DNA from: Desulfobacterales bacterium HSG17
Lineage (GTDB): Bacteria > Desulfobacterota > Desulfobacteria > Desulfobacterales > Desulfococcaceae
Reading direction: 5' to 3'
Assembly: GCA_030377945.1 (NCBI GenBank)
Contig: JAUCGD010000051.1
Coordinates: forward strand, 1-18,886
Length of the DNA: 18,886 bases
Below are positions 1 to 18,886 of this stretch, piece after piece (the stretch's first letter is position 1; the number at the start of each line of letters is the position of its first letter). The position numbers and the translations under genes are program-made. The notes below the pieces were generated by a model. It was not told the origin of the DNA. It saw only the letters and a list, made by a program, of their open reading frames with translations, and did not search any database.

Positions 1-136
1 CTTTGATCCAGAATGGATTGATATATGGCCTGCCTGATTTTTCTAACCCACCTGCGATAAATCAGTGAAAAAAGGGACTTATCCTATAAATGAAAAACTT
101 TTAATCTTTAAAATATTATAAACTCATTAATTACAC

Positions 137-220
137 TTGACAAATAACTTATTCCTTATTATCTATTCTCTTTTATATAAAATTGATGCTTATTTGATTT
201 ATATGTCATTGACATATTAT
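137..220 (+). promoter_or_regulatory. Candidate sigma-70 promoter region of sat
   Basis: Two readings are possible. TTGACA at 137-142 is a perfect -35 box, but its -10 candidates are imperfect: TATTAT at 157-162 leaves a 14-bp spacer, and TATCTA at 160-165 leaves 17 bp but matches poorly. Alternatively TTGATT (194-199) and TATTAT (215-220) with a 15-bp spacer would start transcription near 227 and place the 201-217 palindrome between the two boxes. The AT-rich background makes chance matches likely, so only a promoter zone is claimed. Confidence 0.3.
201..217. promoter_or_regulatory. Perfect palindrome ATATGTCA-T-TGACATAT, candidate operator of sat
   Basis: Two 8-bp arms are exact reverse complements around a single T. 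The site lies 44 bp upstream of the sat start codon and overlaps a possible promoter, which is the usual place for an operator. The core TGTCA-N-TGACA does not match the Rex pattern (TTGTGA...TCACAA), the FNR pattern (TTGAT...ATCAA) or the CRP pattern, so I cannot name the regulator. Confidence 0.5.
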
Positions 221-261
221 GGTAAACAATAATGTAACTTACTGAAAGGAGACAGAAACAC

Positions 262-1515
262 ATGTCTAATTTGATTCCTCCCCATGGCGGAAAAGGCCTG
301 ACCATTTGCTTGCTCGAAGGAGCTGAACTGGATGCTGAAAAGAAAAAAGCCGAAGGTTTGAAAAAACTTGACATCTCTACCCGTGCCCAGGGTGATCTTA
401 TAATGATGGGTATCGGCGGATTCAGCCCTCTTACCAGCTTCATGACCAAAGCAGACTGGAAAGGCGTTTGTGAAAATTTTCAATTGGCAGACGGCACATT
501 CTGGCCTGTACCTGTAACTCTTGATACAGATGATGACAGTATTAATACAGGTGATGAAATTGCACTGGTAAGCGAAGGTGAAATTTATGCCACCATGCAG
601 GTAACAGAAAAATATGAAATGACCGACGCTGATAAGACCTGGGAATGTGAAAAGGTTTATATGGGCGAAGGAACTCCTACTGCTGAAGAGTTCTGGAAGA
701 TTGCAAAAGATGATCATCCTGGTGTACAGATGGTTATGAATCAGGGTAAATTCAACCTTGCCGGTCCTGTTAAAGTTCTCAGCGAAGGTGAATATCCAAC
801 CAAATATGCCGGTATCTACCAGAGACCTGCTGAATCCCGCAAAATATTTGATGACAAAGGCTGGAATGAAGTTGCAGCCCTTCAGCTCAGAAACCCCATG
901 CATCGTTCCCATGAATACCTGGCAAAGATTGCTGTGGAAGTATGTGACGGTGTTTTTATTCATTCCCTGGTTGGAAACCTGAAACCCGGTGATATTCCTG
1001 CTGAAGTACGTGTTAAATGTATTGACAGCCTGGTTAAAAATTATTTTGTCGAAGATAAAGTTGTTCAGGGCGGTTATCCCCTGGATATGCGTTATGCAGG
1101 TCCCAGAGAAGGCCTCCTTCATGCAACCTTCCGCCAGAACTATGGCTGCTCACGTATGATTATTGGTCGTGACCATGCCGGTGTTGGTGATTTCTACGGA
1201 ATGTTTGAAGCCCAGACCATTTTTGACAAAATCCCGGCTCCTGAAGGCGGCAAAGCCCTGCTCTGCACTCCTCTCAAGATTGACTGGACCTTCTACTGCC
1301 ACAAATGTGACGGTATGGCTTCCCTTAGAACCTGCCCCCACGGAAAAGATGACCGTGTACTTCTTTCAGGAACCATGCTCCGCAAAGGTCTTTCCGAAGG
1401 CACAACTCTTCCAGATCATTTTGGTCGTGAAGAAGTTCTTGATATTCTCCGTGAATACTATGCAGGTCTTACTGAAAAAGTTGAAATCAAAACTCATTCA
1501 GCTGCAACCGGTTGA
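262..1515 (+). CDS. sat: Sulfate adenylyltransferase (ATP sulfurylase)
   Basis: This 417-residue cytoplasmic enzyme activates sulfate: ATP plus sulfate gives adenosine phosphosulfate and pyrophosphate, the entry step of dissimilatory sulfate reduction. The N-terminal PUA-like domain covers about residues 1-170. The catalytic domain has the nucleotide-binding [11 protein letters not shown] motif (208-218), whose HXXH histidines are H214 and H217, and the second motif [12 protein letters not shown] (302-313). Cysteines and histidines at C346, C349, C358 and H360 form the zinc site seen in bacterial and archaeal homomeric Sat. Length and motifs are those of the family, and no APS kinase domain is fused. 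The ATG is set by an AAGGAG site at 246-251. The gene is monocistronic by layout, closed by a strong terminator; no aprAB, qmo or pyrophosphatase gene is adjacent in this window. Confidence 0.97.
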
Positions 1516-1550
1516 TAATGAGTTAACAGCACCAGCTGTATAGTTTGATT

Positions 1551-1588
1551 AAAAAAGGGGGATGCTTTTTCAGCATCTCCCTTTTTTT
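1551..1588 (+). terminator. Intrinsic terminator after sat
   Basis: A 16-bp stem pairs 1551-1566 with 1572-1587 around the loop TTTTC. It has one G-U pair and runs from an A-tract into a T-tract of seven, so the hairpin is followed by the U-run expected of Rho-independent termination. The A-tract and T-tract symmetry could let it work in both directions. It lies 35 bp past the sat stop codon. Confidence 0.9.
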
Positions 1589-1603
1589 GTATAAAACGGT
1601 AGC

Positions 1604-1621
1604 GCCGCCTAAGTTGGCGGC
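1604..1621 (+). other. Small GC-rich hairpin in front of mnmG
   Basis: GCCGCC (1604-1609) and GGCGGC (1616-1621) are exact inverted copies around the loop TAAGTT, conspicuous in an AT-rich gap. The hairpin sits between the sat terminator and the mnmG Shine-Dalgarno (AGGG at 1629-1632), so it could be part of the mnmG 5' leader. There is no T-run after it, so it is not called a terminator. Function is unknown. Confidence 0.4.
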
Positions 1622-1640
1622 AACAAAAAGGGCAATTCTT

Positions 1641-3515
1641 ATGGCTTTTTACGGGAAAAAATATGATGTTATTGTTATTGGTGCAGGCCATGCAGGGTGT
1701 GAGGCTGCCCTGTCAGCAGCAAGGATGGGATGCTCGGTTCTTATGCTGGCTATTGATCTTGATAAGCTGGCAGCCATGCCGTGCAGCCCTTCCATCGGAG
1801 GTATGGCAAAGGGGCAGTTAGTCAAGGAGATTGACGCACTGGGCGGTGAGATGGCTAAGGTAACAGATAAAACAGCCATAAGCTATAATTTATTAAATAC
1901 AAAAAAAGGTCCGGCTGTTCATTCATCAAGAACCCAGAACGATAAAATGCGCTACCATATGGCAATGAAAGCAGCTGTTGAAAAACAAACAGGTCTGGAT
2001 CTTAAACAGGGTATGGTGGAAAGGCTGATTATTGAAAACGGGCAGGTTGCAGGTGTGGAAGATAGAACAGGTTTTGGATATTTTGCCAGGACTGTTGTTC
2101 TTGCAGCAGGTACTTTTTTAAGCGGTTTGGTTCACATAGGTTTTAAATCAATTAAATCAGGCAGAGCAGGAGAGTTTGCATCTTACGGACTGGCTGCTCA
2201 TTTAAAAGAGCTTGGTTTTACACTGGGACGCATGAAAACAGGAACTCCACCCCGTCTGCATAAAGCCAGTATTGATTTCAGCAAATTTGATCCACAGGAG
2301 CCAATGTCTGAGCCGTCTCCATTTTCTTTTTTTTCTGAAAATATCTCCATGCCCCAGGTTCCCAGTTATATGGGCCACACCAATGAAAAAAGTCAAAAAG
2401 TAGTTCTGGATAACCTGAAACACTCAGCCCTGTATGGAGGAATGATAAAAGGTGTATCTGCCCGTTATTGCCCCTCTTTTGAAGATAAGGTTGTGAAATT
2501 TCCCGAACGGACCCGTCATCATGTTATCCTGGAGCATGAAGGGCTGGATACTGATGAAATTTATGCCAGCGGTCTGGGAAACAGCCTGCCTGTTGAGGTT
2601 CAGGTTGAATTTGTACGTTCTGTTGCAGGTCTGGAACAGGCAGAGATCATGAGGCCCGGATATGCTATTGAATATGATTATATAAATCCTCTTCAGCTAA
2701 AACAGACCCTTGAAACCAAAAGGATTTCAGGTTTGTTTCTTGCAGGTCAGATTAACGGCACTTCAGGATATGAAGAAGCAGGAGCACAGGGCATGTGGGC
2801 AGGCATTAATGCTGCCTGCCAGGTTCAAAAACGACTTCCCTTTATCCTGGATCGTTCCCAGGCATATATGGGTGTTATGATTGATGACCTGATAACAAAA
2901 GGTACTAAAGAACCTTACCGCATGTTTACATCCCGTGCAGAGTACAGGCTTATGCTTCGGGAAGATAATGCAGATCTCAGGCTCATGTCTTTGGGTCATG
3001 AACTCGGTCTTATTGATAATGACACCTTAAAAGATGTTAATGAAAGAAAAAAACAGATTAAAGATGAGATCAGCAGGATAAAAAAAACAATTATCAAGCC
3101 TCTGCCATTAGTAAATGAATATCTTGAATCCAGAAATACCAGGCCCATAAATAACGGTGTCAGTCTGGATCAGATATTAAAGCGGGCTGAAATGGATTAC
3201 AGAGATGTAGAATTTCTTGGGCCTGCTCCTGAACCTTTGCCCTTAAAGGTTGTCAGTCAGGTTGTTATAGAAAATAAATATGAAGGCTATATCCAGCGCC
3301 AGTTCCGGGAAATTGAAAAATTTAAAAGCCTTGAAAATGTAAAAATACCTGAAAATTTTGACTACACAAAGGTTCATAGTCTTTCTAATGAGCTTTGTGA
3401 AAAATTATCATCTGTCCGGCCTGTATCTTTGGGCCAGGCATCCCGTATAGAAGGCATGACTCCTTCAGCTATTGCAGTACTTATGATTGGCATTAAAGCA
3501 GCCCGGAAAAGTTGA
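1641..3515 (+). CDS. mnmG: tRNA uridine-5-carboxymethylaminomethyl modification enzyme MnmG (GidA)
   Basis: The 624-residue protein is the FAD-binding partner of the GTPase MnmE. Together they install the cmnm5 group on the wobble uridine of certain tRNAs in the cytoplasm. Residues 8-20 hold the dinucleotide fold motif [10 protein letters not shown]. The family signature [19 protein letters not shown] and the segment [14 protein letters not shown] follow, then the FAD-proximal [17 protein letters not shown] around residues 368-384. The C-terminal MnmE- and tRNA-binding region ends with [16 protein letters not shown]. Size matches the family. An in-frame TTG at 1545 would add 32 residues but runs through the sat terminator hairpin, so the ATG at 1641, with AGGG at 1629-1632, is the chosen start. 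No mnmE is next to it. Confidence 0.96.
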
Positions 3516-3609
3516 TAAAAGCAAAAATATCTTGAAAAAAATTGTTTTTACAGGTTATCTATCCTAATTGATTGTGGGCATCATTAATTATACTATTAGG
3601 AGAATAATT

Positions 3610-4434
3610 ATGAAAAAGTGGAGATGTACAGTATGTGGTTATGTTCATACAGGTAATGAACCCCCTGATAAATGTCCGGTATGCGGAGCAGACAAAACTC
3701 TTTTTGAAGAAATTGAGGAAAAAGTAGAAGCTGTTTCCGAAACTGTTGAGCAAAATGAGTCTTCAGAGCTTTCTGAAAAAAAAGAACCTGATAGAACTGG
3801 AGTTCAGGCTCAGGAAGGAAAAGAATCTGCCAGTGAAGTTCAAACCGGTGAAACTCAAACCAGTGAAGTTCAAACCGGTGAAACTCAAACCAGTGAAGTT
3901 CAAACCGGTGAAACTCAAACCAGTAAAACTCAAACCAATGAAACTCAAACCGGTGAGACTTCAATTGATGAATCTTCAGAATCAAAGCCGGCCCGTATTT
4001 ACAATATGATTGTCAAACAACTCCTGAAACACCATGCCCATCCCATATCAGTCCATTTTCCCAATGGCGTGCTTCCCATGTCTGTTATTTTTATTGTCCT
4101 GGCAGTGGCATTTGAGATGAAAGAGTTCGAGATAGTGGGGTTTTACAGCATGATATTTGTTCTTATTATACTTCCTTTTGTTTTATTTACAGGTTATCTG
4201 GAATGGAAAAATAAATATGGAGGCCATCTGACAAAGATTTTTCTAACTAAAATTATCTGTGCCGTTATTGTAACAGGAACTGCCATCTGTGCTGTGGCAT
4301 GGCGCTTTGTTGATCCCAAGGTTATGGATATATATTCCCCTGACCGATGGACATATGTGCTTCTATGCCTTACCATGCTTGGTGCTGCCGTTGTTGCGGG
4401 TATGATCGGCGGCAAACTGGTTTTTAAAGATTAG
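3610..4434 (+). CDS. Rubredoxin-type iron domain fused to DUF2231 membrane protein
   Basis: This is a 274-residue predicted inner-membrane protein. Residues 1-33 are a rubredoxin-like module with C6, C9, C22 and C25 in two CxxC pairs, of the kind found at the end of rubrerythrins, which should bind one iron. Residues 34-130 are an acidic, glutamine- and threonine-rich linker that includes eight five-residue repeats (76-115). Residues 135-272 match the DUF2231 pattern: HPISVHFP at 144-151, the GYLEW signature at 195-199, and four hydrophobic spans near 153-170, 175-195, 210-231 and 248-268. An electron-transfer role at the membrane is inferred from the iron module; substrate and partners are unknown. 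AGGAG at 3598-3602 supports the ATG at 3610 over the more upstream in-frame ATT. Confidence 0.85.
   Translation: MKKWRCTVCGYVHTGNEPPDKCPVCGADKTLFEEIEEKVEAVSETVEQNESSELSEKKEPDRTGVQAQEGKESASEVQTGETQTSEVQTGETQTSEVQTGETQTSKTQTNETQTGETSIDESSESKPARIYNMIVKQLLKHHAHPISVHFPNGVLPMSVIFIVLAVAFEMKEFEIVGFYSMIFVLIILPFVLFTGYLEWKNKYGGHLTKIFLTKIICAVIVTGTAICAVAWRFVDPKVMDIYSPDRWTYVLLCLTMLGAAVVAGMIGGKLVFKD
3835..3954 (+). repeat. 15-bp tandem repeat (30-bp higher-order unit) inside the linker
   Basis: Eight 15-bp units encode (E/K)(V/T)QT(G/S/N). The first three pairs are exact 30-bp copies (3835-3864, 3865-3894, 3895-3924) of GAAGTTCAAACCGGT followed by GAAACTCAAACCAGT; the last two units are diverged. The unit is a multiple of three, so copy changes would lengthen or shorten the linker without a frameshift. 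Because the unit has no stop in several frames, it also creates spurious open frames on both strands here. Confidence 0.95.
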
Positions 4435-4452
4435 CCTCAAATTATTAATTAG

Positions 4453-4482
4453 TGTAGAGACAAGGCATGCCTTGTCTCTACA
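4453..4482. repeat. Perfect 30-bp palindrome, REP/MITE-like
   Basis: The arm TGTAGAGACAAGGCA (4453-4467) is followed immediately by its exact reverse complement. Sequences of the type GTAGAGAC...GTCTCTAC recur between genes in many environmental bacterial genomes, so a dispersed REP-like element is likely from general knowledge. It has no T-run, but as a hairpin it could stabilise or end the rubredoxin transcript, whose stop codon lies 18 bp upstream. Confidence 0.75.
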
Positions 4483-4582
4483 ACAGTATATGAACTAATG
4501 TTTTGCTGTTGTATTTAAGCCCTTCACCAATTTTTTCCTAAATCCCATATATTAAAGCTTGGACGTTCAAACTTTTTAAAGC

Positions 4583-4611
4583 TTGACACATAAAAGTTAT
4601 TTCACTATTTT
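4583..4611 (+). promoter_or_regulatory. Candidate sigma-70 promoter of the signalling cassette
   Basis: A perfect -35 TTGACA (4583-4588) and a -10-like TATTTT (4606-4611) are separated by 17 bp. Transcription would start near 4618, about 58 bp before the GTG start at 4676. A 10-bp direct repeat, TTAAAGCTTG at 4552-4561 and 4576-4585, has its second copy overlapping the -35 box, so a regulator could bind there. Confidence 0.5.
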
Positions 4612-4675
4612 TAAAATGAATTTTTGTCATTTACTGAATCCTCCCCAAATCTTAAAATAAAGGGAATTTTGTTTC

Positions 4676-5746
4676 GTGAAAAAGATTTTGATAGTAGATC
4701 AAGATACCGATAATCTTTCCATATTATCGGAAGCATTAATCCCTTATGATATATTCCGAATAATAACTGCTGAAAATGTCAGGCAGGCTGCTGAACTGCT
4801 TGAACAGAGCGAGTTTGATCTTGTTATAACGGAATTATACCTGCCTGAAATTAACGGATTAAAGCTTCTTGTTTATTTAAAAAAGAAATTTCCGAAAACA
4901 CATGCCATTGCCATGTTAAAATTATCTAAACCGGAAATACAACCAAAGCTGAGTGCATTAGGTGTTCAATACTACTTTATAAAGCCTTTGAATGTCACAT
5001 ATATGGTTGATGCAATTTTTGATGAATTGAATATAGTGCCCACAGGAAGAATTCATGGGATAAGTCTTGCCTCTTTTCTACAACTGGTTGACATAGAAAA
5101 AAAAACATGTACACTAAAAATTACATGTGGTGCTGATACAGGAATGGTGCATTGCCTGGATGGGGAGGTTATTGCTGCTGAAACAGGCAATTTGACCGGG
5201 AAAAAAGCTTTATACCGCATCATGTTCTGGAAAAAAGCTTTAATTGAGATTGAAGAAGAATGCAGAAAATCTGATAGAGAAATTGAAATACCGCTGATGT
5301 ATCTATTGATGGAAAGCCATCAGATTGAAGATGAAAACAAAGATGGAAAACAGCAGGAAGCAGGTAAAAAAATAACAAATGAAGATAACAATCCGGAAAA
5401 ATTGCTGTCTGAAGCAGATGCTCAAAAAATAAAATATTATTTAGCTGATTCCGATGATGTTGATGAATATGGAATATTTGATGAAAACGGTAAAGTGCAA
5501 TATACAAATAATACGTCAGATTCTTTTTTAAGCATAAATTTTTCTTTTTATATTAATACAGGACTCAGTGTAGGAGATGTTCTGGATATTTCTTTGAATT
5601 GTATAGATATTTATACTAAATCCCGTGCGCGTTACATTTTATTTAAATATCAAAATATTATTATCATTGCCGGGCTGAAACCAGGCTGCCGATCAATGGA
5701 TTTCATGAAAAGATTTAAGTTGCAGGATAAGGGGAAAAATGAATAA
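4676..5746 (+). CDS. Degenerate receiver plus DUF4388 (PATAN) regulator with roadblock-like tail
   Basis: A 356-residue cytoplasmic protein in three parts. Residues 1-118 have the response-regulator fold, starting KKILIVDQD, but the phospho-acceptor position in VITELYLPEING is E53 instead of aspartate. The conserved Ser/Thr region reads AMLKLSK, with L where Thr/Ser is expected, while K103 is kept (FIKPLN). Residues 127-215 match DUF4388/PATAN (GISLASFLQLVDIEKK). After an acidic linker, residues 260-340 look like a roadblock/LC7-type sandwich; this last call is weaker. The start is GTG, with AAAGGGA at 4659-4665. The stop overlaps the next start by 8 bp, so the two are translationally coupled. 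It likely acts as a phosphorylation-independent adaptor, an inference from the lost acceptor. Confidence 0.8.
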   Translation: MKKILIVDQDTDNLSILSEALIPYDIFRIITAENVRQAAELLEQSEFDLVITELYLPEINGLKLLVYLKKKFPKTHAIAMLKLSKPEIQPKLSALGVQYYFIKPLNVTYMVDAIFDELNIVPTGRIHGISLASFLQLVDIEKKTCTLKITCGADTGMVHCLDGEVIAAETGNLTGKKALYRIMFWKKALIEIEEECRKSDREIEIPLMYLLMESHQIEDENKDGKQQEAGKKITNEDNNPEKLLSEADAQKIKYYLADSDDVDEYGIFDENGKVQYTNNTSDSFLSINFSFYINTGLSVGDVLDISLNCIDIYTKSRARYILFKYQNIIIIAGLKPGCRSMDFMKRFKLQDKGKNE

Positions 5747-6401
5747 AATACTTGACGAGATTAAATCCATTCCCGGAATGATCGGGGGATTTATTTTTAA
5801 TTCTCAAAAAGGTATTAGAGCCAGCAACCTGCCAATGATCTTTAAAGAGGACAGGCTGCAAAAAATTGCAGGAATGCTGATAAAAATGTATTCCAACGGC
5901 AGAACCAATTTTTCTGATATTCTCGAAATTTCAATCTATTATGATGAATCAGTATTGATAATCAGGGATATAGGCGACTCCACATATTTAATAATCCTGT
6001 GTGATCCTTCAATTAATGAGAATCTTCTGACAATGTCTCTGAATCTTGTTATGGGTGATCTAAAAAAACAGAAAGAACCTCATGAAAAGATTTCAATTTC
6101 CGAGTCCGGCAAAAATAAAAATATTGGTCCAAAAAATGAAATAAACGGTGAAAATCTTTTAAATGAAGGGCCGATGTCGGAAAAACTCAAAGGAATGCAG
6201 ACAGCCCTGGCTAAAATTGTAGGCCCAATGGCAAAAATAATATTTATAGATGCTCTTGATGAATGGGTAAAAATCGAACAACCTGGTTTTTCTTCCATAA
6301 ATACCCTGGTAAAAATACTTGGCAGGGAGATAGGTGATCCTGAAAAGACTATTTATTATAGAAATCTCATAGAACCTTATATGGCAGATGGAAAAAAATG
6401 A
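5739..6401 (+). CDS. Roadblock/LC7-type protein with C-terminal helical domain
   Basis: This 220-residue cytoplasmic protein starts inside the end of the preceding regulator (8-bp overlap, GGGG at 5731-5734), a clear coupling signal. Residues 1-110 read as a roadblock/LC7 fold: an N-terminal helix, then GMIGGFIFNSQKGIRAS, and alternating strands ending YLIILCDPS. Residues 110-145 are a charged linker. Residues 147-216 form a helical segment around LAKIVGPMAKIIFIDAL, resembling the small IGPxA-type domain (DUF8082-like) found at the end of some bacterial kinases and regulators; that match is from memory. In other bacteria roadblock proteins such as MglB control small Ras-like GTPases, but no GTPase is encoded in this window. 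Confidence 0.7.
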   Translation: MNKILDEIKSIPGMIGGFIFNSQKGIRASNLPMIFKEDRLQKIAGMLIKMYSNGRTNFSDILEISIYYDESVLIIRDIGDSTYLIILCDPSINENLLTMSLNLVMGDLKKQKEPHEKISISESGKNKNIGPKNEINGENLLNEGPMSEKLKGMQTALAKIVGPMAKIIFIDALDEWVKIEQPGFSSINTLVKILGREIGDPEKTIYYRNLIEPYMADGKK

Positions 6402-6452
6402 TTCCTTGTTCCAGAAAAATATCAACCGGGAAAAAGACGGAAGGATCCTGCA

Positions 6453-6821
6453 ATGGCAGATATTCAAACTTTTGCTGATATGATATCAAAGATTGAAGGG
6501 GTTAAAAACTATATATTTGTGAGAAATGACGGCAGGGTCATTGTTCATAACACTAACAGTCCTGAAACTTTATCTTCAATGGTAACATTTGCCGGATTAA
6601 GCAGCGATGCTGTCAAATCTATCCTGGGAACCACTTATTTTAAATATTTTATACTATCAAGAAAAAACGGAGAAAAAATATTTGTTTTCCCCATTATAAA
6701 CTATTATCTTGGTATATTACAGGATTCAAAAGCCTATACACCTGATGTGATTCAGAAGATAGAACGCTTTGTAAATGCAGTTAGCAGGCATAAAAAGCAG
6801 CCTGCTTCAAATACTAAATAA
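6453..6821 (+). CDS. Small roadblock/LC7-like protein
   Basis: A 122-residue protein consisting of a single alpha/beta domain. The opening helix is followed by KIEGVKNYIFVRNDGRVIVH, then a helix, a strand pair FKYFILSRKNGEKIFVFPI, and a final helix. This is the order expected of a roadblock/LC7 fold, but similarity is at the pattern level only and no catalytic motif is present. GGAAGGA at 6439-6445 fixes the ATG. It follows the previous gene by 51 bp on the same strand, so it is likely the third member of the same transcript. It could form homo- or heterodimers with the two neighbouring roadblock-like domains. Confidence 0.6.
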   Translation: MADIQTFADMISKIEGVKNYIFVRNDGRVIVHNTNSPETLSSMVTFAGLSSDAVKSILGTTYFKYFILSRKNGEKIFVFPIINYYLGILQDSKAYTPDVIQKIERFVNAVSRHKKQPASNTK

Positions 6822-6855
6822 ATCTCTTTTTATATTACATCAAGGAGAAAATTGT

Positions 6856-7461
6856 ATGTTAAAATTAATCTGTTTTTATCTGCTGATAATTATCTCCTGG
6901 CTTAATATAACTGCATCCGCAATTTGTTTTGCACAGGAAAAGAAAATAGACGGTTTTGATCTCCAGGTCAGAAACTGGGCAGGAGCATGTAAAATTGAGA
7001 TTATTTCAGAGTTTCGAAAAATGTTTGAATCAAATATAATTAGCAAAGCTAAATTGTTTGACACCTTCTATATCCCTGTTCCAAATACAGACCCTCAAAA
7101 ATACCAGACCCAGTATGATAAACATACAGATAAGGCCCTTCAAAAAATCCTTGATAATTATCTTGCCAAAGACAACAGGCTTATATTTGTAGCTGTGGTT
7201 GACATAAACGGCTATCTGCCTACCCATAATTCAAAATACTCCAAACCCCTGACAGGGAACAGGGAACAGGATCTTATGGACAGCAGAACAAAAAGAATAT
7301 TCAATGATCGTACCGGACTTGCCGCAGCCAGAAATATTCAACCTTTTCTTATTCAGCGTTACAGCAGGGATACAGGAGAAGAAATGGTAGATCTTTCTGT
7401 TCCCATTTTTATAAATGACCGGCACTGGGGAGCAGTACGTTTTGGATATAAATATAAATAA
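6856..7461 (+). CDS. Secreted chemoreceptor-type sensor domain protein without output domain
   Basis: A 201-residue exported protein. Residues 1-26 are a signal peptide with a hydrophobic core (LICFYLLIIISWL) and a probable cut after ICFA. The rest is the conserved C-terminal half of a ligand-binding domain known from methyl-accepting chemotaxis proteins. It shows VDINGYLPTHNSKYSKPLTG (116-134), the SRTKRIF segment (143-149), RYSRDTGEEMVDLSVPIF (168-185) and HWGAVRFGY (190-198). There is no second membrane span, HAMP or kinase domain, so it should act in the periplasm, perhaps handing a ligand to the membrane-bound paralogue 112 bp downstream. The ATG at 6856 has AAGGAG at 6842-6847; an upstream in-frame ATG at 6775 overlaps the previous gene and lacks this site. 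Confidence 0.75.
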   Translation: MLKLICFYLLIIISWLNITASAICFAQEKKIDGFDLQVRNWAGACKIEIISEFRKMFESNIISKAKLFDTFYIPVPNTDPQKYQTQYDKHTDKALQKILDNYLAKDNRLIFVAVVDINGYLPTHNSKYSKPLTGNREQDLMDSRTKRIFNDRTGLAAARNIQPFLIQRYSRDTGEEMVDLSVPIFINDRHWGAVRFGYKYK

Positions 7462-7464
7462 CAA

Positions 7465-7517
7465 AACCACGAATAACACGAATTTAAAATTATAATATAT
7501 TCGTGTTATTCGTGGTT
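7465..7517. repeat. 19-bp inverted repeat with 15-nt AT-rich loop
   Basis: AACCACGAATAACACGAAT (7465-7483) is followed by its exact reverse complement at 7499-7517. CCACGAA-type inverted repeats occur between genes in many bacterial genomes, so a dispersed REP-like unit is likely. It starts 4 bp after the stop of the secreted sensor gene and may also attenuate read-through into the next gene. Confidence 0.8.
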
Positions 7518-7573
7518 AAAGAAAAAATGGGTTTTATTTCCTAAAGTATAAGAAAAAGAAAGGCATTTTATAA

Positions 7574-8467
7574 ATGATAAAAAAAAGAATCGGTTTTAAA
7601 ATTGCTCTGCTTGTAAACTGTGCATTATTTTTTGTACTTTTTGCAGGGTCGGTGTTTATCTTCAAACAGGAAACCGGACGTATGAAAGATCATCTGCTGG
7701 ATAAAGGAAGGCTTGCGTCCATGACAGGTTCAAAAGGCTTCAGTCGGATTATTGAAGAAGCAATTGATAACGGAGTTCTCAAACCGGCAGATGTTATGGA
7801 TACGGAATACACAGAAATTACCGGATTTGATCCTCCAAAATTTCATACAAAATACGACTGGTATCTTGATAAAGCCATTCTTTCATTTGAGGATGAATTT
7901 CTCAAGGAAAGTGATATATTATATGCTGTTGCAATGGATATAAAAGGCTATGTTCCCACACACAACACCAGGTATAACAAGCCTCCTACCGGGGACAAGG
8001 CAAAGGACCTGGAAGGCAACCGCACCAAGCGAATCTATGCTGATAAAATTGCAAAACAAGCTGCTGTAAATAAGCAAAACGGATTGGTGCAGGTTTACAG
8101 CCGGGATACCGGAGAAACGGTCTGGGATATTTCAACACCTGTTTTTATCAAAGGAAAACACTGGGGATGCTTCAGAGTGGGATTTGATCTGATAACTGTA
8201 AATAAGGCTGAAAAAAATCTGATTATTTCCCTTGGTATTATTATGCTGATAGTCATGTTCTTTATAATGATTATAACTTTTGTGTTGATTAATAAAACTT
8301 TAGCTCCTTTAGTAGAATTTACAAAAATTGCATCTGATTTTGCAGACGGCAATCTAGATACAAAAATCGTCTCAAAATCACAGGATGAAATCGGCAGACT
8401 GGCAGATGTACTGGAACGTTTAAGAATAAGCCTTAAAGCAGCAATGGAGCGTCTCAGCAGGCGGTAA
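7574..8467 (+). CDS. Membrane-bound chemoreceptor-type sensor ending after HAMP
   Basis: A 297-residue inner-membrane protein. TM1 lies near residues 8-30 and TM2 near 215-239, with the sensor domain between them in the periplasm. The sensor carries MDIKGYVPTHNTRYNKPPTG (121-140), NRTKRIY (149-155), VYSRDTGETVWDISTPVF (174-191) and KHWGCFRVGF (195-204), the same signature as the secreted protein just upstream. A HAMP linker follows (about 238-291: LAPLVEFTKIASDFADGNLD ... DEIGRLADVL). The protein stops there: no methyl-accepting, kinase or cyclase domain is present, and no obvious frameshift restores one in the next 33 bp before the permease gene. It must signal by contact with another protein or be a truncated receptor. 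The site before the ATG is AAAGG around 7559-7563. Confidence 0.82.
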   Translation: MIKKRIGFKIALLVNCALFFVLFAGSVFIFKQETGRMKDHLLDKGRLASMTGSKGFSRIIEEAIDNGVLKPADVMDTEYTEITGFDPPKFHTKYDWYLDKAILSFEDEFLKESDILYAVAMDIKGYVPTHNTRYNKPPTGDKAKDLEGNRTKRIYADKIAKQAAVNKQNGLVQVYSRDTGETVWDISTPVFIKGKHWGCFRVGFDLITVNKAEKNLIISLGIIMLIVMFFIMIITFVLINKTLAPLVEFTKIASDFADGNLDTKIVSKSQDEIGRLADVLERLRISLKAAMERLSRR

Positions 8468-8499
8468 AACAGAAATTATCTGCGGCTCGGTCATTTTTT

Positions 8500-9417
8500 A
8501 TGAATATTTTTATTACAATTATTCCAATATTTTCAGTCATCACCCTGGGCTGGTTTGCGCGCTGCCGGGGTTTTATGCCAGGAGAATTTTTAGAACCTGG
8601 CAACCGCCTGGTTTTTCATATTGCTATCCCTGCAATGATATTTCGTTCAATTTCCAAAGGTTCTTTAAAATCAAATTTTGATATCAATGTACTGGCAATT
8701 ACCCTGGTATCATTGATCTTGTTTTTTTTCTTTGCCCTGATAATAGGAAAAATAACCCATATTCAAAAAAATCAATTTGCTACATTTCTGCAAAGCTCTT
8801 TTCATGGCAACCTGGGATATATCGGACTGGCAGTAGCTTATTATTTTCTTGGAGATCAGGGTCTTGCCAGTGCCAGTATTCTTGCAGGATTTGTTATGAT
8901 TTTGCAGAATTTTTTAGCTGTAATTGTCCTTCAAAACTATTCAAAACAGGCTTCAAGAAAAAAAATCGGAACTCTGCTTTTAAAAATCATAAAAAATCCG
9001 GTTATTGTAACAGCCATAGCAGGCATATTATTTTCTGCATCAGGACTGGCTCTGCCACTTGTCATAAGCCGAAGCCTGGATATTTTAAGCGGACTGGCCC
9101 TGCCCCTTGCCCTGCTGCTCATAGGTGCATCTCTTTCCTTTGAGATGATGCGTTCCAGGATTTTTCCAGTTCTATATGCCGGCATAATGAAGCTCATTCT
9201 TCTGCCCGGGCTGGGATTTGTTTTATATAAATTCCGGTCCATAGAGCCACAGGACTATCTCCCCGGTCTGATACTCCTGGCCTCACCAACTGCAACCATT
9301 GCATATGTTATGGCAAAGGAAATGGGAGGAGATTCGGATTTTGCATCAGCTGCAATTTCATTCAGTACATTATTATCTTTAATAACCTTTTCAATATGGC
9401 TTAAATTAACCCTGTAA
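8500..9417 (+). CDS. AEC-family permease (auxin efflux carrier type)
   Basis: The 305-residue protein is almost entirely hydrophobic, with about ten membrane spans in two five-span halves. It has the family's opening, PIFSVITLGWFARCRG, and the helix-breaking motifs FHIAIPAMIF (about 39-48) and FHGNLGYIGLAVAYYFLG (about 104-121), with a matching LASPTATIAYVMAKEMGG late in the second half. AEC members are secondary transporters often moving organic acids such as malate; the substrate here cannot be read. The ribosome binding site is weak (no clear purine box before ATG 8500). It lies 32 bp after the HAMP sensor gene, so it may be on the same transcript without being functionally linked. Confidence 0.88.
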   Translation: MNIFITIIPIFSVITLGWFARCRGFMPGEFLEPGNRLVFHIAIPAMIFRSISKGSLKSNFDINVLAITLVSLILFFFFALIIGKITHIQKNQFATFLQSSFHGNLGYIGLAVAYYFLGDQGLASASILAGFVMILQNFLAVIVLQNYSKQASRKKIGTLLLKIIKNPVIVTAIAGILFSASGLALPLVISRSLDILSGLALPLALLLIGASLSFEMMRSRIFPVLYAGIMKLILLPGLGFVLYKFRSIEPQDYLPGLILLASPTATIAYVMAKEMGGDSDFASAAISFSTLLSLITFSIWLKLTL

Positions 9418-9439
9418 AAAGATCATAAAAGGAAAATGT

Positions 9440-10381
9440 ATGAAAATTAATTTCAAAAAAGCATTGATTACCGGAGGAGCAGGCTTTATAGGTTCTCACC
9501 TTGCAGAAACCCTGATAAAAGAAAAATGTGAAGTATCAATAATAGATAACCTTTCAACCGGTCATCTTTCCAATATTGGACATATCAATGATAAAATTAA
9601 ATTTTTTCAGGGAGATATTCAAGATACGGAACTTTTAACCCAGGCTGCCAAAGGCTGTGAAATAATATTTCATGAAGCAGCCCAGGTGTCAGTGCCCAAA
9701 AGTGTGGAAGATCCTGTAACATCTGCAATGATTAATGATATGGGAACCCTTCAGGTACTTGAGGCAGCAAGGCAAAATGGAGTAAAGCGGGTGGTTCTTG
9801 CCAGTTCCTCTGCTATTTACGGCGATAACCCGGATTCTCCAAAGCAGGAAGATATGAAACCCAGGCTTTTAAGCCCCTATGCTCTTCAAAAACTCACAGG
9901 CGAACTTAATGCAAAGCTGTATAATGATCTGTTCGGACTTGAAACGGTCTGCCTTCGCTATTTCAATGTTTACGGCCCCCGCCAGGATCCGTCATCCCCA
10001 TATTCAGGGGTCATCTCCATATTTATGACCAAAGCTTTTGCAGGTGAGAGTCCCCTGATTCACGGAAACGGAAATCAGACAAGGGATTTTGTTTTTGTCA
10101 AAGATGTAGTAAAAGCCAATCTGCTGGCAGCCTGTGTTCCCAATGCAGCAGGTGAAATATTAAATATTGGCATTGGCTCCTGTGTGAACATTAAGCAATT
10201 ATGGGAGATTATAGCCCGAATGGCCGGTCTGGATATTGCTCCTGAATACGGCCCCTCAAGAGCCGGAGATATAATGGAATCTCTGTCTGACATCAGCCGT
10301 GCAAAATCCATACTGGAATTTGTACCTGAGTATTCTTTTGAACAGGGCCTTGAACAGACATTGGAATGGTATCAACACTGA
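9440..10381 (+). CDS. NAD-dependent epimerase/dehydratase, UDP-sugar 4-epimerase type
   Basis: A 313-residue extended short-chain dehydrogenase acting in the cytoplasm on nucleotide sugars. The Rossmann motif GGAGFIG is at residues 12-18, followed by D36 and the DNLSTGH segment that usually contacts NAD. The catalytic triad is visible as S123/S124 in ASSSAIYG and Y147-x3-K151 in SPYALQKLTGE. RYFNVYGPRQ and GNGNQTRDFVFVKDV are typical of UDP-glucose or UDP-GlcNAc 4-epimerases (GalE or WbpP-like). Which sugar is used cannot be decided from the sequence. AAAAGGA at 9427-9433 fixes the ATG. The gap from the permease is 22 bp. It is the last gene of the plus-strand block. Confidence 0.88.
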   Translation: MKINFKKALITGGAGFIGSHLAETLIKEKCEVSIIDNLSTGHLSNIGHINDKIKFFQGDIQDTELLTQAAKGCEIIFHEAAQVSVPKSVEDPVTSAMINDMGTLQVLEAARQNGVKRVVLASSSAIYGDNPDSPKQEDMKPRLLSPYALQKLTGELNAKLYNDLFGLETVCLRYFNVYGPRQDPSSPYSGVISIFMTKAFAGESPLIHGNGNQTRDFVFVKDVVKANLLAACVPNAAGEILNIGIGSCVNIKQLWEIIARMAGLDIAPEYGPSRAGDIMESLSDISRAKSILEFVPEYSFEQGLEQTLEWYQH

Positions 10382-10549
10382 GCCTGACCACAATAAATGA
10401 TGCTCTCAGCCTGCAATATCTGCCAGGCAAAATCAGTAAGGTCATTTTGTAGCTGCCGCCCAGTCAAAGTCCCTCAAAAATTGTGTAGTGCCCAAATGTA
10501 CAAGTACGCCTATTCAAGCCACTGTTATCGTATATAATTTTTTATGGAA
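10382..10549. other. Non-coding gap between convergent genes
   Basis: The plus-strand epimerase and the minus-strand hybrid kinase end on either side of this 168-bp gap. I see no convincing bidirectional terminator; a weak GCCTG/CAGGC pair near 10410-10429 lacks a T-run. On the minus strand a short stop-bounded stretch around 10440-10510 reads TTQFLRDFDWAAATK, which could be a gene remnant but is too short to support. Confidence 0.5.
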
Positions 10550-13500
10550 TCATGAACTTGGGGTAATTAGTTTTATAATTTTTCCATATTCAAAATCTGC
10601 TGCCAGCTCAGACAGGTTATTTGCTAAATCAGTATTTATCTCACATAACTCATTAATAATCTCATCTGTTTTTTCCATATCAACATTAATAGCTGCCTGT
10701 TTCAGTCTTTTTAGTATGTTATCTGGTATGCCGGAAAGATCTTCGGAACTTATTGTCTTTGGTCTATTCTCATGGTATTTTTTTATATCAGCATCTTCAT
10801 AGACAAGTTGGACATTCAAATGGCGGTGCATCAACTCAAAAATCTCAGAATCCCTGAAAGGTTTTCGCAAAAAATCATTGCAGCCGGCCTCAATAATAAT
10901 TGTGCGTTCCTCTTCCAATACGCTGGCTGTCTGGGCTATGATAATTGTTTCAGTACCTTTGGGATTATTTTTTTCCATATCGCGTATAGTTTTTACAGCT
11001 TCATATCCATCCATGACCGGCATTCTCATATCCATCCAGATGAGATTTGGCAGATGTTTCTGCCAAATCTCCACGGCAATCTGTCCGTTTGATGCCTTGT
11101 ACAATTCAAATCCAAAGGGTTCAAGAATTTTGATAAGCAGATTTCGATTATCATTATTGTCATCAACAATTAATATTTTGTATCCTGGCTGGCCAGGTTT
11201 GATAGAAATTGCCTTTTGGGTTCGGGTCTTACTCTCTATCTCCTCAGCATCAGCTAAATGAATCTGGATTTCAAAGAAAAATGTTGTGCCTTTATCAACT
11301 TCACTTCTAACCTTGATTTCTCCGCCCATAAGCTGTACAAATTTTTGACTGATAGACAGTCCTAAACCGGTTCCTTCCTGGGTCTGTATACCTGTTTTTG
11401 TTTGAGCAAATGCCTTAAAAAGTGTCTCCATTTCATCCGGTTCAATACCGGGACCGGTGTCTTTTACAGTGAACACTAACCAGTAATCAGTGATCTTTTT
11501 TTCACTGTTTACTGATAACTGAATTTCACCCTGTTGAGTAAATTTAACTGCATTTCCAATCAGGTTAATCAGTACCTGGCGCAGTTTTATTTCATCGGTT
11601 TTGATAAATTGGGGAATATCAGGCCCATATGTAACAATCAATGATAAGTCTTTTTTTTCTGCCCGTAAGCCCAGCATGTCTTTTAAATCATCCAGCAGAT
11701 CATACAGGTTAAAGATATTTTCGTTTACAGTGGTTCTTCCGGCTTCTATTTTTGACATGTCCAGAACATCATTTATCAGGGAAAGCAGGTGTTTCCCGCT
11801 GCGCCGGATAATGGACAGATGTTCCCTGTGTTCAGGATTGAGTGTTTTGTCGTGGCTGATTAACCTGGAAAATCCAAGAATTGCGTTCATGGGGGTTCGC
11901 AGTTCATGGCTCATGTTTGCAATAAAAGCGCTTTTGGCTTGATTTGCAGCATCTGCTGCTTTTTCCGATAATCTCAGATATTCTTCTATCTGTTTAAGTT
12001 CGGTAATATCAGTGGCAATTTCCAGGCGTACCAGGTGCCCGTTCAGCCATTGAATGGCCTGGTCATGATTGTGATACCACATACCTGTTATAGTATTCTG
12101 AAAATCCCAGGTGTACAGGCCGGTTGGTCTGCCGTTAAGCACCAGATATTTATTTGTGCAAAAGGCACAAGGGCCTGTTTGCCCTTTTTGCAGTGCCTGC
12201 CAGCATATCTGCCCTTCAATATCACCAAATAATTTGCGAGTGTAATGATTGATAAATAAAATCTCATATGTATCCATATCAGCCACATAAATTATTGATT
12301 CCATGCTGTTCATTACAGCTGCAAACCGCTGTTCGCTTTTCTGCAATCTGGTTGTACGTTCCATGACTTCCTGCTCAAGTTCTGTTTTGCGATTTTGAAG
12401 AGATTTTATTCTCCAGGAATAAGCACTGAACATTGCAAGAATTATAGATGTCAGCATAAATCCCCTGAACAACCAGCTTGTCCACCAAGGAGGTAAAATG
12501 ATAACTTCCAGGGATGTTTCTTTATTGTTCCACACATTATCATTATTGGAACCTTTTACATGAAAAATATATTTGCCCGGATCCAGGTTGGTGTATCTGG
12601 CAAAACGGCGGCGGCTGTCCGTATAAATCCAGTCTTTATCAAAGCCTTCAAGCATGTAGGCATATTTGTTTTTCAAAGGGGAGATATAGTTCAGAGCTGA
12701 AAACTCAAATCCCAGTTTTGATAAATCATGGGAAAGGATAATTCTCTTTGTATAGGTGATATGCTTTTGCAGCACGGAATTTTTGGCAATTGGAACCGAT
12801 TTGTTGAACAATTGAAAGTCCGTCAGTATCACAGGCGGAATATGGGGATTATCTTTGATATTTTTGGGATGGAATCTGTTAAAACCGTTATTTCCGCCAA
12901 AATATAGTTCCCCGGTTTTGGTTTTACAGGATGCTTTTAATCTGAATGCTGCTCCCTGCAAACCGTCCTCTTTATCATAATTTCTGAATACACCTTTTTT
13001 TATTCTTTGGAAGTCAGGGATTAAGCAGGAAAGTCCTTTGTTGGTGCTGATCCATAGATTTCCCCGGTCATCTTCCACAACACCCTTGACAGAATTATTG
13101 GCCAGACCGTGTTTTATTGTATAATGGTGAAAAATTTCCGTTTCCCGGTCAAATCTGTCCAGGCCCCCCTCTGTACCAATCCACAGGTTATTGTTTTGAT
13201 CTTCATGCATCATTAAAACAGTTGCGTGCCCTAAACTGTCAGGATTGTCTGGGTTATGTTGGAAGTGAACAAATTTTTGGGTTTCAGGTTCAAACCTGTC
13301 CAGTCCTCCCACAGCACATATCCACAATACACCGGTTTTGTCCTGGAAAATATATAAAACCCTGTTGTCAACAAGGCTGTCAGGGTTGTAAGGGTCATGC
13401 AGAAAGCGGGTAAAGGTATTGGTTTCCCTGTTAAACCGGTTTAAACCTCCTTCCCAGGTTCCGACCCATAAATTATTTTTCCTGTCTTTTTTTACGAATG

Positions 13501-14941
13501 TCACCAGATTACTGCTGATAGTGTCCGGGTTGGCAGGATCATGTTTATAGTGGGAAAAAATTTCTTTTTCAGAATCAAATCTTTCCAGACCGCCTCCCCA
13601 GGTGCCAACCCAGAAAAAACCGGCATTCTCTTCACAAATGCTGATTGTATGTATAAGAGACAATGAATCGGGATTATTTTTATCTGGCAGATAATGCCTG
13701 TAATTTCCGGTTTCAGGATTAAATCTGTCCAGTCCTCCGCCTGTGAGACAAAACCATATATATCCTTTGCTGTCTTCGTAAATCTGATTAATTTTATTGC
13801 TGCCGATACTTAAAGGGGTGTCAGGATTATACTTATAATGAGGGAATTTGTTTTTTCTGAAATCTGTTTTACTTATGCCGTTTGAAGTTCCAAACCAAAA
13901 ACTGCCTGAATTATCTTCAAAAAAAGCCATTATACCGTCTTCAATCAGACTTTGAGGGTCATTGGGAGAATGGGTGTAATGCTTAAAAATTGCTTTTGGA
14001 TTCTCGCCTGTTTTTGAAATTATTAATTTATTCACCCCGCCGCCGTAGGTACCGATCCATAATACCCCTTGACTGTCTTCCCTGACAAATCGGACTGCAT
14101 TATGGCTGAGGCTGTCAGGATTATTTTCATCATGAAGAAATTTTTCAAATTTTATATGTTCATATTCTTTGGTTTCAGAAATGGCAAAACGATTCAGCCC
14201 CCTGTCCGTACAAATCCAGAGAAAACCTCTGCTGTCTTCATAAATATCTCTAACCATATTATGACTGAGACTTTGAGAATCTGAGGGATCATGCTGAAAA
14301 GAATCAAAGGTCCCGGTTTTACGGTCAAACAGGTTTAAGCCCCTGGAAGTACCGATCCAAAGGTTTTTCAGGCTGTCCTCAAAAACAACTTCTGCATGAT
14401 TGCTGCTCAGGCTTTTGGGATCATCAGGACTATGTTGATAATTAACAAATGTTTTGTTTTTATGGTCAAATTCGTATAATCCGCCGGTTCTTGCAGCAAT
14501 CCATACTTTTTCAGAAGAATCTCCATAAACCGACCAAATGGGATTGTAGGCAATTTTTTTATCAGGAATATATCTTTCAAATCTCTCGGTTTCAGGATCT
14601 AACATATTCAGGCCGCCCTGTGTCCCAAGCCATAATCTGCCGTTTTTATCTTCCCAGACCGCATTCACCGAGTTATTGATCAAACTGTGCGGATTTTCCG
14701 CATCATGCCTGAAAACAGTGAATGTATAACCGTCATATTTATTCAAACCGTCAGATGTGCCGATCCAGATAAATCCTTTTTTATCCTGGAAAATGAAGTT
14801 TATAAAGTTAGCTGACAGACCGGTATCCGGGGTAAAATGTTCGAATTTTATAGCAGGGTCTTCAGCAAAGAGGTTTGTGATCGGAATAAAGCTTATAATA
14901 AGAAAGATTGCTGAAAACAGTATTTTTTTTCGTTTTGTCAT
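10550..14941 (-). CDS. Hybrid histidine kinase with 14-blade two-component propeller, Y_Y_Y, PAS and receiver
   Basis: A 1463-residue inner-membrane sensor. Residues 1-26 are a signal peptide (cut after NLFA). Residues 45-690 hold 14 propeller repeats of the form EDxxGxLWIGTxxGGLxxFD...NPxSLsxN, enough for two seven-bladed propellers in the periplasm. A Y_Y_Y domain follows (about 735-815), then one membrane span (about 820-842) and a short coiled coil. A PAS domain (870-985) has C913, C925 and C928 in GPCAFC. The kinase core has H1012 in NMSHELRTP, N-box N1130, DTGPGI (1161) and GTGLGLS (1190). A receiver has acceptor D1304 and K1360. A 75-residue helical tail ends it, with no AraC helix-turn-helix as in Bacteroidetes HTCS proteins. 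An in-frame TTG at 14953 would add four residues; the ATG is preferred. Signal and target are unknown. Confidence 0.93.
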   Translation of the reverse strand: MTKRKKILFSAIFLIISFIPITNLFAEDPAIKFEHFTPDTGLSANFINFIFQDKKGFIWIGTSDGLNKYDGYTFTVFRHDAENPHSLINNSVNAVWEDKNGRLWLGTQGGLNMLDPETERFERYIPDKKIAYNPIWSVYGDSSEKVWIAARTGGLYEFDHKNKTFVNYQHSPDDPKSLSSNHAEVVFEDSLKNLWIGTSRGLNLFDRKTGTFDSFQHDPSDSQSLSHNMVRDIYEDSRGFLWICTDRGLNRFAISETKEYEHIKFEKFLHDENNPDSLSHNAVRFVREDSQGVLWIGTYGGGVNKLIISKTGENPKAIFKHYTHSPNDPQSLIEDGIMAFFEDNSGSFWFGTSNGISKTDFRKNKFPHYKYNPDTPLSIGSNKINQIYEDSKGYIWFCLTGGGLDRFNPETGNYRHYLPDKNNPDSLSLIHTISICEENAGFFWVGTWGGGLERFDSEKEIFSHYKHDPANPDTISSNLVTFVKKDRKNNLWVGTWEGGLNRFNRETNTFTRFLHDPYNPDSLVDNRVLYIFQDKTGVLWICAVGGLDRFEPETQKFVHFQHNPDNPDSLGHATVLMMHEDQNNNLWIGTEGGLDRFDRETEIFHHYTIKHGLANNSVKGVVEDDRGNLWISTNKGLSCLIPDFQRIKKGVFRNYDKEDGLQGAAFRLKASCKTKTGELYFGGNNGFNRFHPKNIKDNPHIPPVILTDFQLFNKSVPIAKNSVLQKHITYTKRIILSHDLSKLGFEFSALNYISPLKNKYAYMLEGFDKDWIYTDSRRRFARYTNLDPGKYIFHVKGSNNDNVWNNKETSLEVIILPPWWTSWLFRGFMLTSIILAMFSAYSWRIKSLQNRKTELEQEVMERTTRLQKSEQRFAAVMNSMESIIYVADMDTYEILFINHYTRKLFGDIEGQICWQALQKGQTGPCAFCTNKYLVLNGRPTGLYTWDFQNTITGMWYHNHDQAIQWLNGHLVRLEIATDITELKQIEEYLRLSEKAADAANQAKSAFIANMSHELRTPMNAILGFSRLISHDKTLNPEHREHLSIIRRSGKHLLSLINDVLDMSKIEAGRTTVNENIFNLYDLLDDLKDMLGLRAEKKDLSLIVTYGPDIPQFIKTDEIKLRQVLINLIGNAVKFTQQGEIQLSVNSEKKITDYWLVFTVKDTGPGIEPDEMETLFKAFAQTKTGIQTQEGTGLGLSISQKFVQLMGGEIKVRSEVDKGTTFFFEIQIHLADAEEIESKTRTQKAISIKPGQPGYKILIVDDNNDNRNLLIKILEPFGFELYKASNGQIAVEIWQKHLPNLIWMDMRMPVMDGYEAVKTIRDMEKNNPKGTETIIIAQTASVLEEERTIIIEAGCNDFLRKPFRDSEIFELMHRHLNVQLVYEDADIKKYHENRPKTISSEDLSGIPDNILKRLKQAAINVDMEKTDEIINELCEINTDLANNLSELAADFEYGKIIKLITPSS

Positions 14942-15066
14942 AACATACACCAAATTCCATATATCTATTCAGAGGCAAAAAAGCAGTTCTTCTTCATTTC
15001 GAGTCCAGACATGCTGTTCTATTCAATCTACTCTTTCACTAGTCTGTACAGGAACAAATGTACAGG
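14942..15066. other. Gap upstream of the propeller kinase
   Basis: The 125-bp gap separates two minus-strand genes. It holds a 7-bp inverted repeat CTGTACA / TGTACAG (15044-15050 and 15059-15065) next to the stop codon of the ATPase gene, without a T-run. I could not find a convincing promoter on the minus strand, so whether the kinase has its own promoter or is read from the genes upstream is open. Confidence 0.5.
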
Positions 15067-16797: not shown

Positions 16798-16844
16798 GTT
16801 ATGGATTCCTTTTATACAGAAATAAAACCGGGAAGTTTTTAAGT

Positions 16845-18875: not shown

Positions 18876-18886
18876 TACTCACCTGT

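Follow-up and report, generated by a model that had tools for sequence, protein, structure and literature searches.

A HAMP receptor without an output domain and its DUF8082 neighbor in a five-gene cassette of Desulfobacterota

The signal of a HAMP domain is usually taken up by an output domain that follows in the same polypeptide. How, then, could a membrane receptor whose polypeptide ends at HAMP pass on a signal? The question is raised by an 18,886-nucleotide stretch of DNA from Desulfobacterales bacterium HSG17 (contig JAUCGD010000051.1 of assembly GCA_030377945.1, positions 1–18,886 of the forward strand; hereafter the window), in which five adjacent genes encode a receiver-PATAN-roadblock protein (gene 1), a roadblock-DUF8082 protein (gene 2), a small roadblock protein (gene 3), a secreted sensor (gene 4) and a membrane sensor ending in HAMP (gene 5). 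A first-pass annotation, made from the sequence alone, had drawn this layout and proposed that the HAMP sensor talks to the roadblock proteins. The annotated layout is confirmed, and the five genes form one set. The proposed dialogue is partly supported: gene neighborhoods favor a link between a HAMP sensor and a roadblock protein, but the receptor follows the DUF8082 domain carried by gene 2 and not the roadblock fold as such. The interpretation is better phrased as a HAMP tail talking to DUF8082, with the roadblock and PATAN domains behind it.

The receptor tail and the DUF8082 domain

Gene 5 (SEN2; 7,574–8,467, + strand; 297 aa) encodes a membrane receptor in which two transmembrane segments, placed by eye, flank a sensor domain of the type found in gene 4 and are followed by HAMP and a short conserved tail. 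The protein stops 9 residues past the HAMP match (E = 1.8e-7), aligned relatives (25 proteins) end alike, and no methyl-accepting chemotaxis protein (MCP) signaling domain lies C-terminal to HAMP, in line with the first-pass annotation. With nothing but this short tail behind HAMP, the receptor lacks an output of its own. The tail (residues 281–297; 8,414–8,464, + strand; residues rechecked in the tail alignment) directly follows HAMP in gene 5 and its relatives, and recurs in output-less receptors whose sensor domains differ. A search model covering HAMP and the tail, derived from the gene 5 family alone, retrieved further output-less receptors. The loci studied hold 87 distinct tail receptors of this kind, 42 with the cassette sensor domain and 45 with others; besides the SEN domain, the Pfam sensor types include dCache_1, Cache_3-Cache_2, dCache_3, Tll0287-like and zinc-ribbon/Cache. 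Many of these receptors adjoin differently built DUF8082 proteins, namely receiver-DUF8082 (locus L029), receiver-PATAN-DUF8082 (L027), short DUF8082-like and stand-alone DUF8082 proteins. A receiver-PATAN-DUF8082 protein is also encoded in L026.

Gene 2 (RB1; 5,739–6,401, + strand; 220 aa) comprises a roadblock domain (residues 1–112), a flexible linker (~115–136) and a helical DUF8082 domain (147–219). The latter (6,171–6,398, + strand), identified by profile match, is the proposed partner of the receptor tail on the basis of the association tests described below. Structure matches listed for gene 2 cover the roadblock half only, and therefore no fold is claimed for DUF8082. Neither gene 2 nor its 54 aligned relatives matched an NCBIfam family at E ≤ 0.01, and no paper with the word DUF8082 was found in the literature searched. 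Stand-alone DUF8082 proteins span 150–180 aa; queries with them yielded 88 homologs, of which the named ones (a minority) are of Desulfobacterota type, except one labeled only Pseudomonadota.

Tail receptors and DUF8082 are connected at the level of gene neighborhoods. A same-strand tail receptor is located within 6 kb at 43 of 57 roadblock loci with DUF8082, versus none of the 10 without it. For all 14 non-adjacent loci, a tail-type match of receptor length is present elsewhere in the genome (the match in genome G140 was not read). For stand-alone DUF8082 genes, 20 test stretches were taken first by E-value, with a match starting at model position 90 or beyond, and were picked before their neighbors were known; 20 control stretches were hand-picked, 19 on the same contigs and 1 on another genome. 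A tail receptor was present somewhere in the fetched stretch for 19/20 stand-alone DUF8082 genes versus 0/20 control stretches, and in 13/20 it starts directly downstream (≤200 bp, same strand) of the DUF8082 gene.

The association extends to whole genomes. Desulfuromonadia and Desulfobacteria were searched separately, and all of the following counts refer to the matches listed. Among 562 genomes, 163 carry both a tail receptor and DUF8082, 9 a receptor only, 25 DUF8082 only and 365 neither. The corresponding numbers are 67, 6, 5 and 193 for 271 genomes of Desulfuromonadia, and 96, 3, 20 and 172 for 291 genomes of Desulfobacteria, including Desulfonema limicola. The tail-receptor sets reach down to ~40 bits; one search was confined to open frames of ≤440 aa with a match extending to position 57 or beyond, with G372, cut by a contig end, retained, and the other to open frames of ≤520 aa, with nine longer entries set aside. 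Of 141 listed tail matches (≤520 aa) in Desulfobacteria, 101 have one of the 150 listed DUF8082 matches no more than 6.5 kb away. The association between tail receptors and DUF8082 is strong, and the window itself holds an output-less tailed HAMP receptor together with a neighboring DUF8082 protein.

Conservation of the cassette and its regulator

Sixty further stretches were read and mapped, the 67 mapped loci being chosen by a gene 2 match; a search of genome contigs with gene 2 had given eight loci, and the gene 2 profile has matches in 60/291 and 109/277 genomes of the two classes, many covering one half of the protein only. Genes 1–5 occur in the window order in 24 of the 67 loci, the window included. 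A PAS histidine kinase gene heads 17 of these 24 (L002–L006, L008, L089, L090, L093, L094, L097–L099, L101, L103, L104, L126), the majority from Desulfuromonadia. Four loci encode the products of genes 1 and 2 as a single fused protein (L074, 604 aa; L075, 609 aa; L083, 645 aa; L105, 489 aa), which argues for physical association. Across 271 genomes, SEN2 and gene 2 relatives (matches of at least 100 bits) occur together in 37, SEN2 alone in 3, gene 2 alone in 17 and neither in 214; in 12 of the 17 gene 2-only genomes, the listed matches include a tail receptor from a different length class.

In D. limicola (G192) the complete set is present, with genes 1–2 and genes 3–5 ~377 kb apart in opposite orientation and the break between genes 2 and 3. 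Aligned DNA blocks of the window and D. limicola are 73–86% identical, and the split is the pattern that one inversion would leave. The scattering named in the first-pass annotation as the observation that would speak against a shared unit is thus seen there in a mild form, but all five genes are retained. Taken with the recurrent order and the co-occurrence of SEN2 and gene 2, this shows the five genes behaving as one evolutionary unit, in support of the first-pass interpretation.

Gene 1 (4,676–5,746, + strand; 356 aa, GTG start) is response-regulator-like, with a receiver (~1–117), a PATAN/DUF4388 domain (~121–228; PF14332 match of 53.9 bits against a cut-off of 25) and a C-terminal roadblock-like region (246–353). 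The phospho-acceptor position of the receiver is occupied by Glu53 (codon 4,832–4,834, + strand; position rechecked in the receiver alignment), the acidic pair reads Asp8-Gln9, and Lys103 is retained. The window receiver lacks both the phospho-acceptor Asp and an intact acidic pair that mark phospho-signaling response regulators, and its description as a regulator without a phospho-acceptor holds. Glu likewise replaces the phospho-Asp in the D. limicola receiver.

Receiver integrity goes with the presence of the kinase. In a hand count from 44 alignment rows, at loci chosen by gene 2 match, Asp and the acidic pair are intact in 27/27 relatives with an adjacent family kinase versus 6/16 without (27/0 versus 6/10). 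L089 and L094 were scored as kinase-adjacent by hand, L121 (weak kinase match) as without a family kinase, and L107, with a kinase one gene away and an intact receiver, was excluded. The alignment and the locus maps together show that absence of an adjacent kinase goes with receiver decay. No family kinase adjoins the cassette in the window, D. limicola or several other loci, the rest of the genome not having been searched for one. The first-pass statement that no kinase is present therefore stands for the surroundings of the window cassette but not for the wider system, of which the PAS histidine kinase is a part. The kinase of L002, the sole one scanned, has only PAS (just under cut-off), HisKA and HATPase types among its Pfam matches. 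In Desulfonema, judging from the receiver residues and the lack of an adjacent family kinase, the phosphorylation input seems lost, which probably leaves the HAMP receptor as the main input.

The roadblock proteins belong to the roadblock/LC7 superfamily, as judged by their alpha-beta-beta-alpha-beta-beta-beta-alpha fold and by resemblance in sequence or structure to established members. For gene 3 (RB2; 6,453–6,821, + strand; 122 aa), a single roadblock-domain protein, a profile of 35 aligned proteins matches dynein light chain roadblock (E = 7.7e-8). Twenty of the 35 match Robl_LC7 at E ≤ 1 (best 7.7e-5), and the window's own protein has no match. The C-terminus of gene 1 is tentatively assigned as roadblock-like from the order of its secondary structure; comparison of the gene 1 model with the PDB gave only receiver chains among the matches listed.

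Gene 4 (SEN1; 6,856–7,461, + strand; 201 aa) is predicted to be periplasmic, with a signal-peptide-like N-terminus (by eye) followed by a soluble Cache-like sensor domain. Its family has 30 invariant columns in a 25-protein alignment, and 11/25 members give a weak sCache_3_2 match. The cassette sensor domain was also observed C-terminal to an MCP signaling domain in six proteins (L185–L190), where it is probably cytoplasmic. Most tail receptors found with stand-alone DUF8082 genes (L199–L217) have a zinc ribbon at the N-terminus (Zn_ribbon_4 in 14/15 scanned).

Variant arrangements were recorded in the same survey. L003 carries a complete six-gene cassette on a contig titled Gammaproteobacteria, reflecting either misbinning or inter-phylum transfer. 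L119 and L120 have a kinase gene followed by genes 1, 2 and 3; their gene 2 is devoid of DUF8082, and there is no tail receptor in the vicinity. A second recurring cassette (L161–L164, L166) comprises a CheY-like protein, a short protein with a DUF8082-like C-terminus and a HAMP-tail receptor; the C-terminal assignment is weak or by eye, with no Pfam match in the three scanned. This cassette is followed by a c-type cytochrome in L161 and by a receiver-PATAN regulator in L162; the receptor of L161, the sole one scanned, is Tll0287-like.

Neighboring features of the window

Promoter- and terminator-like sites occur at chance level and are therefore uninformative on a single transcript. Between genes 4 and 5, a 93-bp stretch (7,462–7,554) absent at the same D. 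limicola junction contains a 22-nt inverted repeat (arms 7,465–7,486 and 7,496–7,517, 95% complementary) and looks like a short palindromic insertion; the 17-base core of one arm has no exact match in 244 loci. Upstream of gene 1 and downstream of the preceding gene lies a perfect 15-nt loopless inverted repeat (4,453–4,482). In the protein of that preceding gene (3,568–4,434), a repetitive ETQTSEVQTG-type linker joins a rubredoxin-like domain to a DUF2231 membrane domain. Further away, the minus strand encodes two hybrid histidine kinases (10,550–14,953 and 16,845–18,875), one with a two-component-regulator propeller and a Y_Y_Y domain.

Proposed signaling in trans and the competing accounts

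With moderate confidence, we favor the reading that the cassette belongs to a modular family in which the HAMP tail passes the signal in trans to DUF8082 and the PATAN and roadblock proteins carry the output. A HAMP tail read by DUF8082 is the simplest account because DUF8082 is the most constant companion of the tail receptors, while roadblock, PATAN, receiver and kinase vary. We infer the following route from ligand to output. Gene 5 would sense an external signal through its Cache-like domain, probably together with its secreted paralog gene 4, and the HAMP dimer with its basic helical tail would act in trans on the helical DUF8082 domain carried by the adaptor, gene 2. Assembly of the gene 2 roadblock domain with gene 3 and with the roadblock-like C-terminal region of gene 1 would then alter the state of the PATAN regulator, which would deliver its output by contact, plausibly to a type IV pilus or gliding motor or to a small GTPase. 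In Desulfuromonadia, gene 1 is probably also phosphorylated by the apparently soluble PAS kinase encoded just upstream.

Roadblock domains are dimerizing adaptors. In Synechocystis, the pilus motor PilB is described as a target that PATAN regulators control through contact (PMC10519157, PMC7690835). Both properties point to a contact-based complex whose output may be motility. Gliding of Desulfonema is reportedly named in the title of a published paper.

Several observations weigh against signaling from tail to DUF8082. Eight of the 10 loci without DUF8082 belong to another roadblock type, so that kind and lineage are mixed in that comparison; only L119 and L120 are close siblings. Among the listed tail matches in Desulfobacteria, 40 of 141 have no listed DUF8082 match within 6.5 kb. 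Twenty Desulfobacteria genomes with DUF8082 have no tail receptor among the matches listed (down to ~40 bits), and nine genomes across both classes have a listed tail receptor and no DUF8082 match. G157 encodes a receiver-PATAN-DUF8082 protein and has zero matches to the HAMP-tail model, and L216 has a stand-alone DUF8082 gene with no tail receptor within its stretch. SEN1-SEN2 pairs occur without a roadblock or DUF8082 match among the mapped genes in L178, L179–L184 and L198; all 8 genomes with such lone pairs carry DUF8082 elsewhere. The adjacency and co-occurrence counts come from related genomes and loci, so the Fisher values, which ignore kinship, overstate independence. In addition, some of the loci from which the DUF8082 model was built lie next to receptors.

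Of the competing accounts, the one that fares best, though we regard it as unlikely, is a polarity or motility module of the MglA-MglB-RomR type, in which the roadblock proteins act on an MglA-like GTPase encoded elsewhere and the receptor only biases the outcome. The cassette differs from MglA-MglB-RomR of Myxococcus xanthus in that it contains no MglA, its regulator bears PATAN and its proposed input is a HAMP receptor. A domain scan found no GTPase among the five window genes or the flanking rubredoxin/DUF2231 and membrane transport genes, in keeping with the first-pass remark that no Ras-like GTPase is present; the other loci were not searched for one. A search for MglA-like GTPases with the Arf family (PF00025) yielded matches that are for the most part weak. 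In 3 of the 10 genomes searched, one lies next to a PATAN gene, but all three are weak (~26–31 bits) and the family is also found in 12/14 control genomes; therefore no claim of a GTPase is made. Nor is there a tail receptor close to any of the 10 roadblock loci lacking DUF8082.

Somewhat less likely still is that the HAMP tail switches the detached PAS histidine kinase, the DUF8082 and roadblock proteins being scaffolds or outputs of the pathway. The leading position of the kinase gene in 17/24 five-gene loci, the PAS, HisKA and HATPase composition of the L002 kinase and the intact receivers wherever a family kinase adjoins are all consistent with such a switch. However, the window and several other loci pair the tail receptor with DUF8082 and have no adjacent family kinase, and DUF8082 is the more constant neighbor.

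It is improbable that the output-less receptors regulate other receptors through mixed dimers or arrays with chemoreceptors or kinases, their tie to DUF8082 being indirect. The cassette sensor domain is also found in chemoreceptors and SEN1-SEN2 pairs sometimes stand alone, but mixed dimers do not predict a tail that is kept across several unrelated sensor types and tracks DUF8082 genome-wide in two classes. That the genes are mere neighbors without a common function can be set aside as very improbable: the D. limicola set stands in two places and parts lie apart in some genomes, but the order is retained across two classes, genes are fused and sets are co-retained after separation, and chance adjacency was rejected by the neighbor test (19/20 versus 0/20 controls) and the recurrent gene order (24/67).

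Several known systems come close to the cassette. Passages of PMC13343842 and PMC4316618 describe conservons (CvnA-D), conserved operons with a HAMP membrane sensor and an MglB-type roadblock protein, and the cassette resembles them in joining these two components in a conserved gene set. In the same passages CvnA has a kinase module and the operon includes a Ras-like GTPase, whereas gene 5 stops after HAMP and has no kinase domain, the five window genes and the two flanking genes include no GTPase, and DUF8082 and PATAN are present. The GTPase survey PMC4316618 mentions PATAN and, in a passage concerning CvnA, HAMP; its text also places PATAN genes near MglB homologs, so that part is not new. 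No paper combining DUF4388 with roadblock was found in the literature searched. Like the PATAN-CheY regulators PixE, PixG and LsiR of cyanobacteria, reported in passages of PMC7690835 and PMC10519157 with a contact-type output on PilB, gene 1 joins PATAN to a receiver. Unlike them, it has the receiver first, an extra roadblock-like domain, and roadblock/DUF8082 and HAMP-only receptor genes as neighbors. Gene 5 itself is like Af1503 of Archaeoglobus, a receptor not known to have an output domain, in being a membrane receptor that ends at HAMP, and its HAMP matches an AF1503 structure (E = 1.6e-6); the proposed DUF8082 partner and the conserved tail distinguish it.

A broader proposition is more tentative, and we place it a little short of even: DUF8082 could be a general reader of HAMP receptors, through which a receptor class without output domains signals in trans, via its conserved tail, to soluble DUF8082 adaptors. 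This would allow free exchange of sensors ahead of one common PATAN/roadblock machinery and would add a third mode of wiring to those of two-component kinases and methyl-accepting chemoreceptors. A receptor that ends at HAMP has no obvious signaling route, and DUF8082, which tracks such receptors across two classes and several sensor types, offers a testable partner. If true, this would suggest a function for DUF8082 and an input for the PATAN-roadblock proteins of Desulfobacterota, and would show how receiver phosphorylation can be dropped, as in Desulfonema, with the rest of the signaling complex kept.

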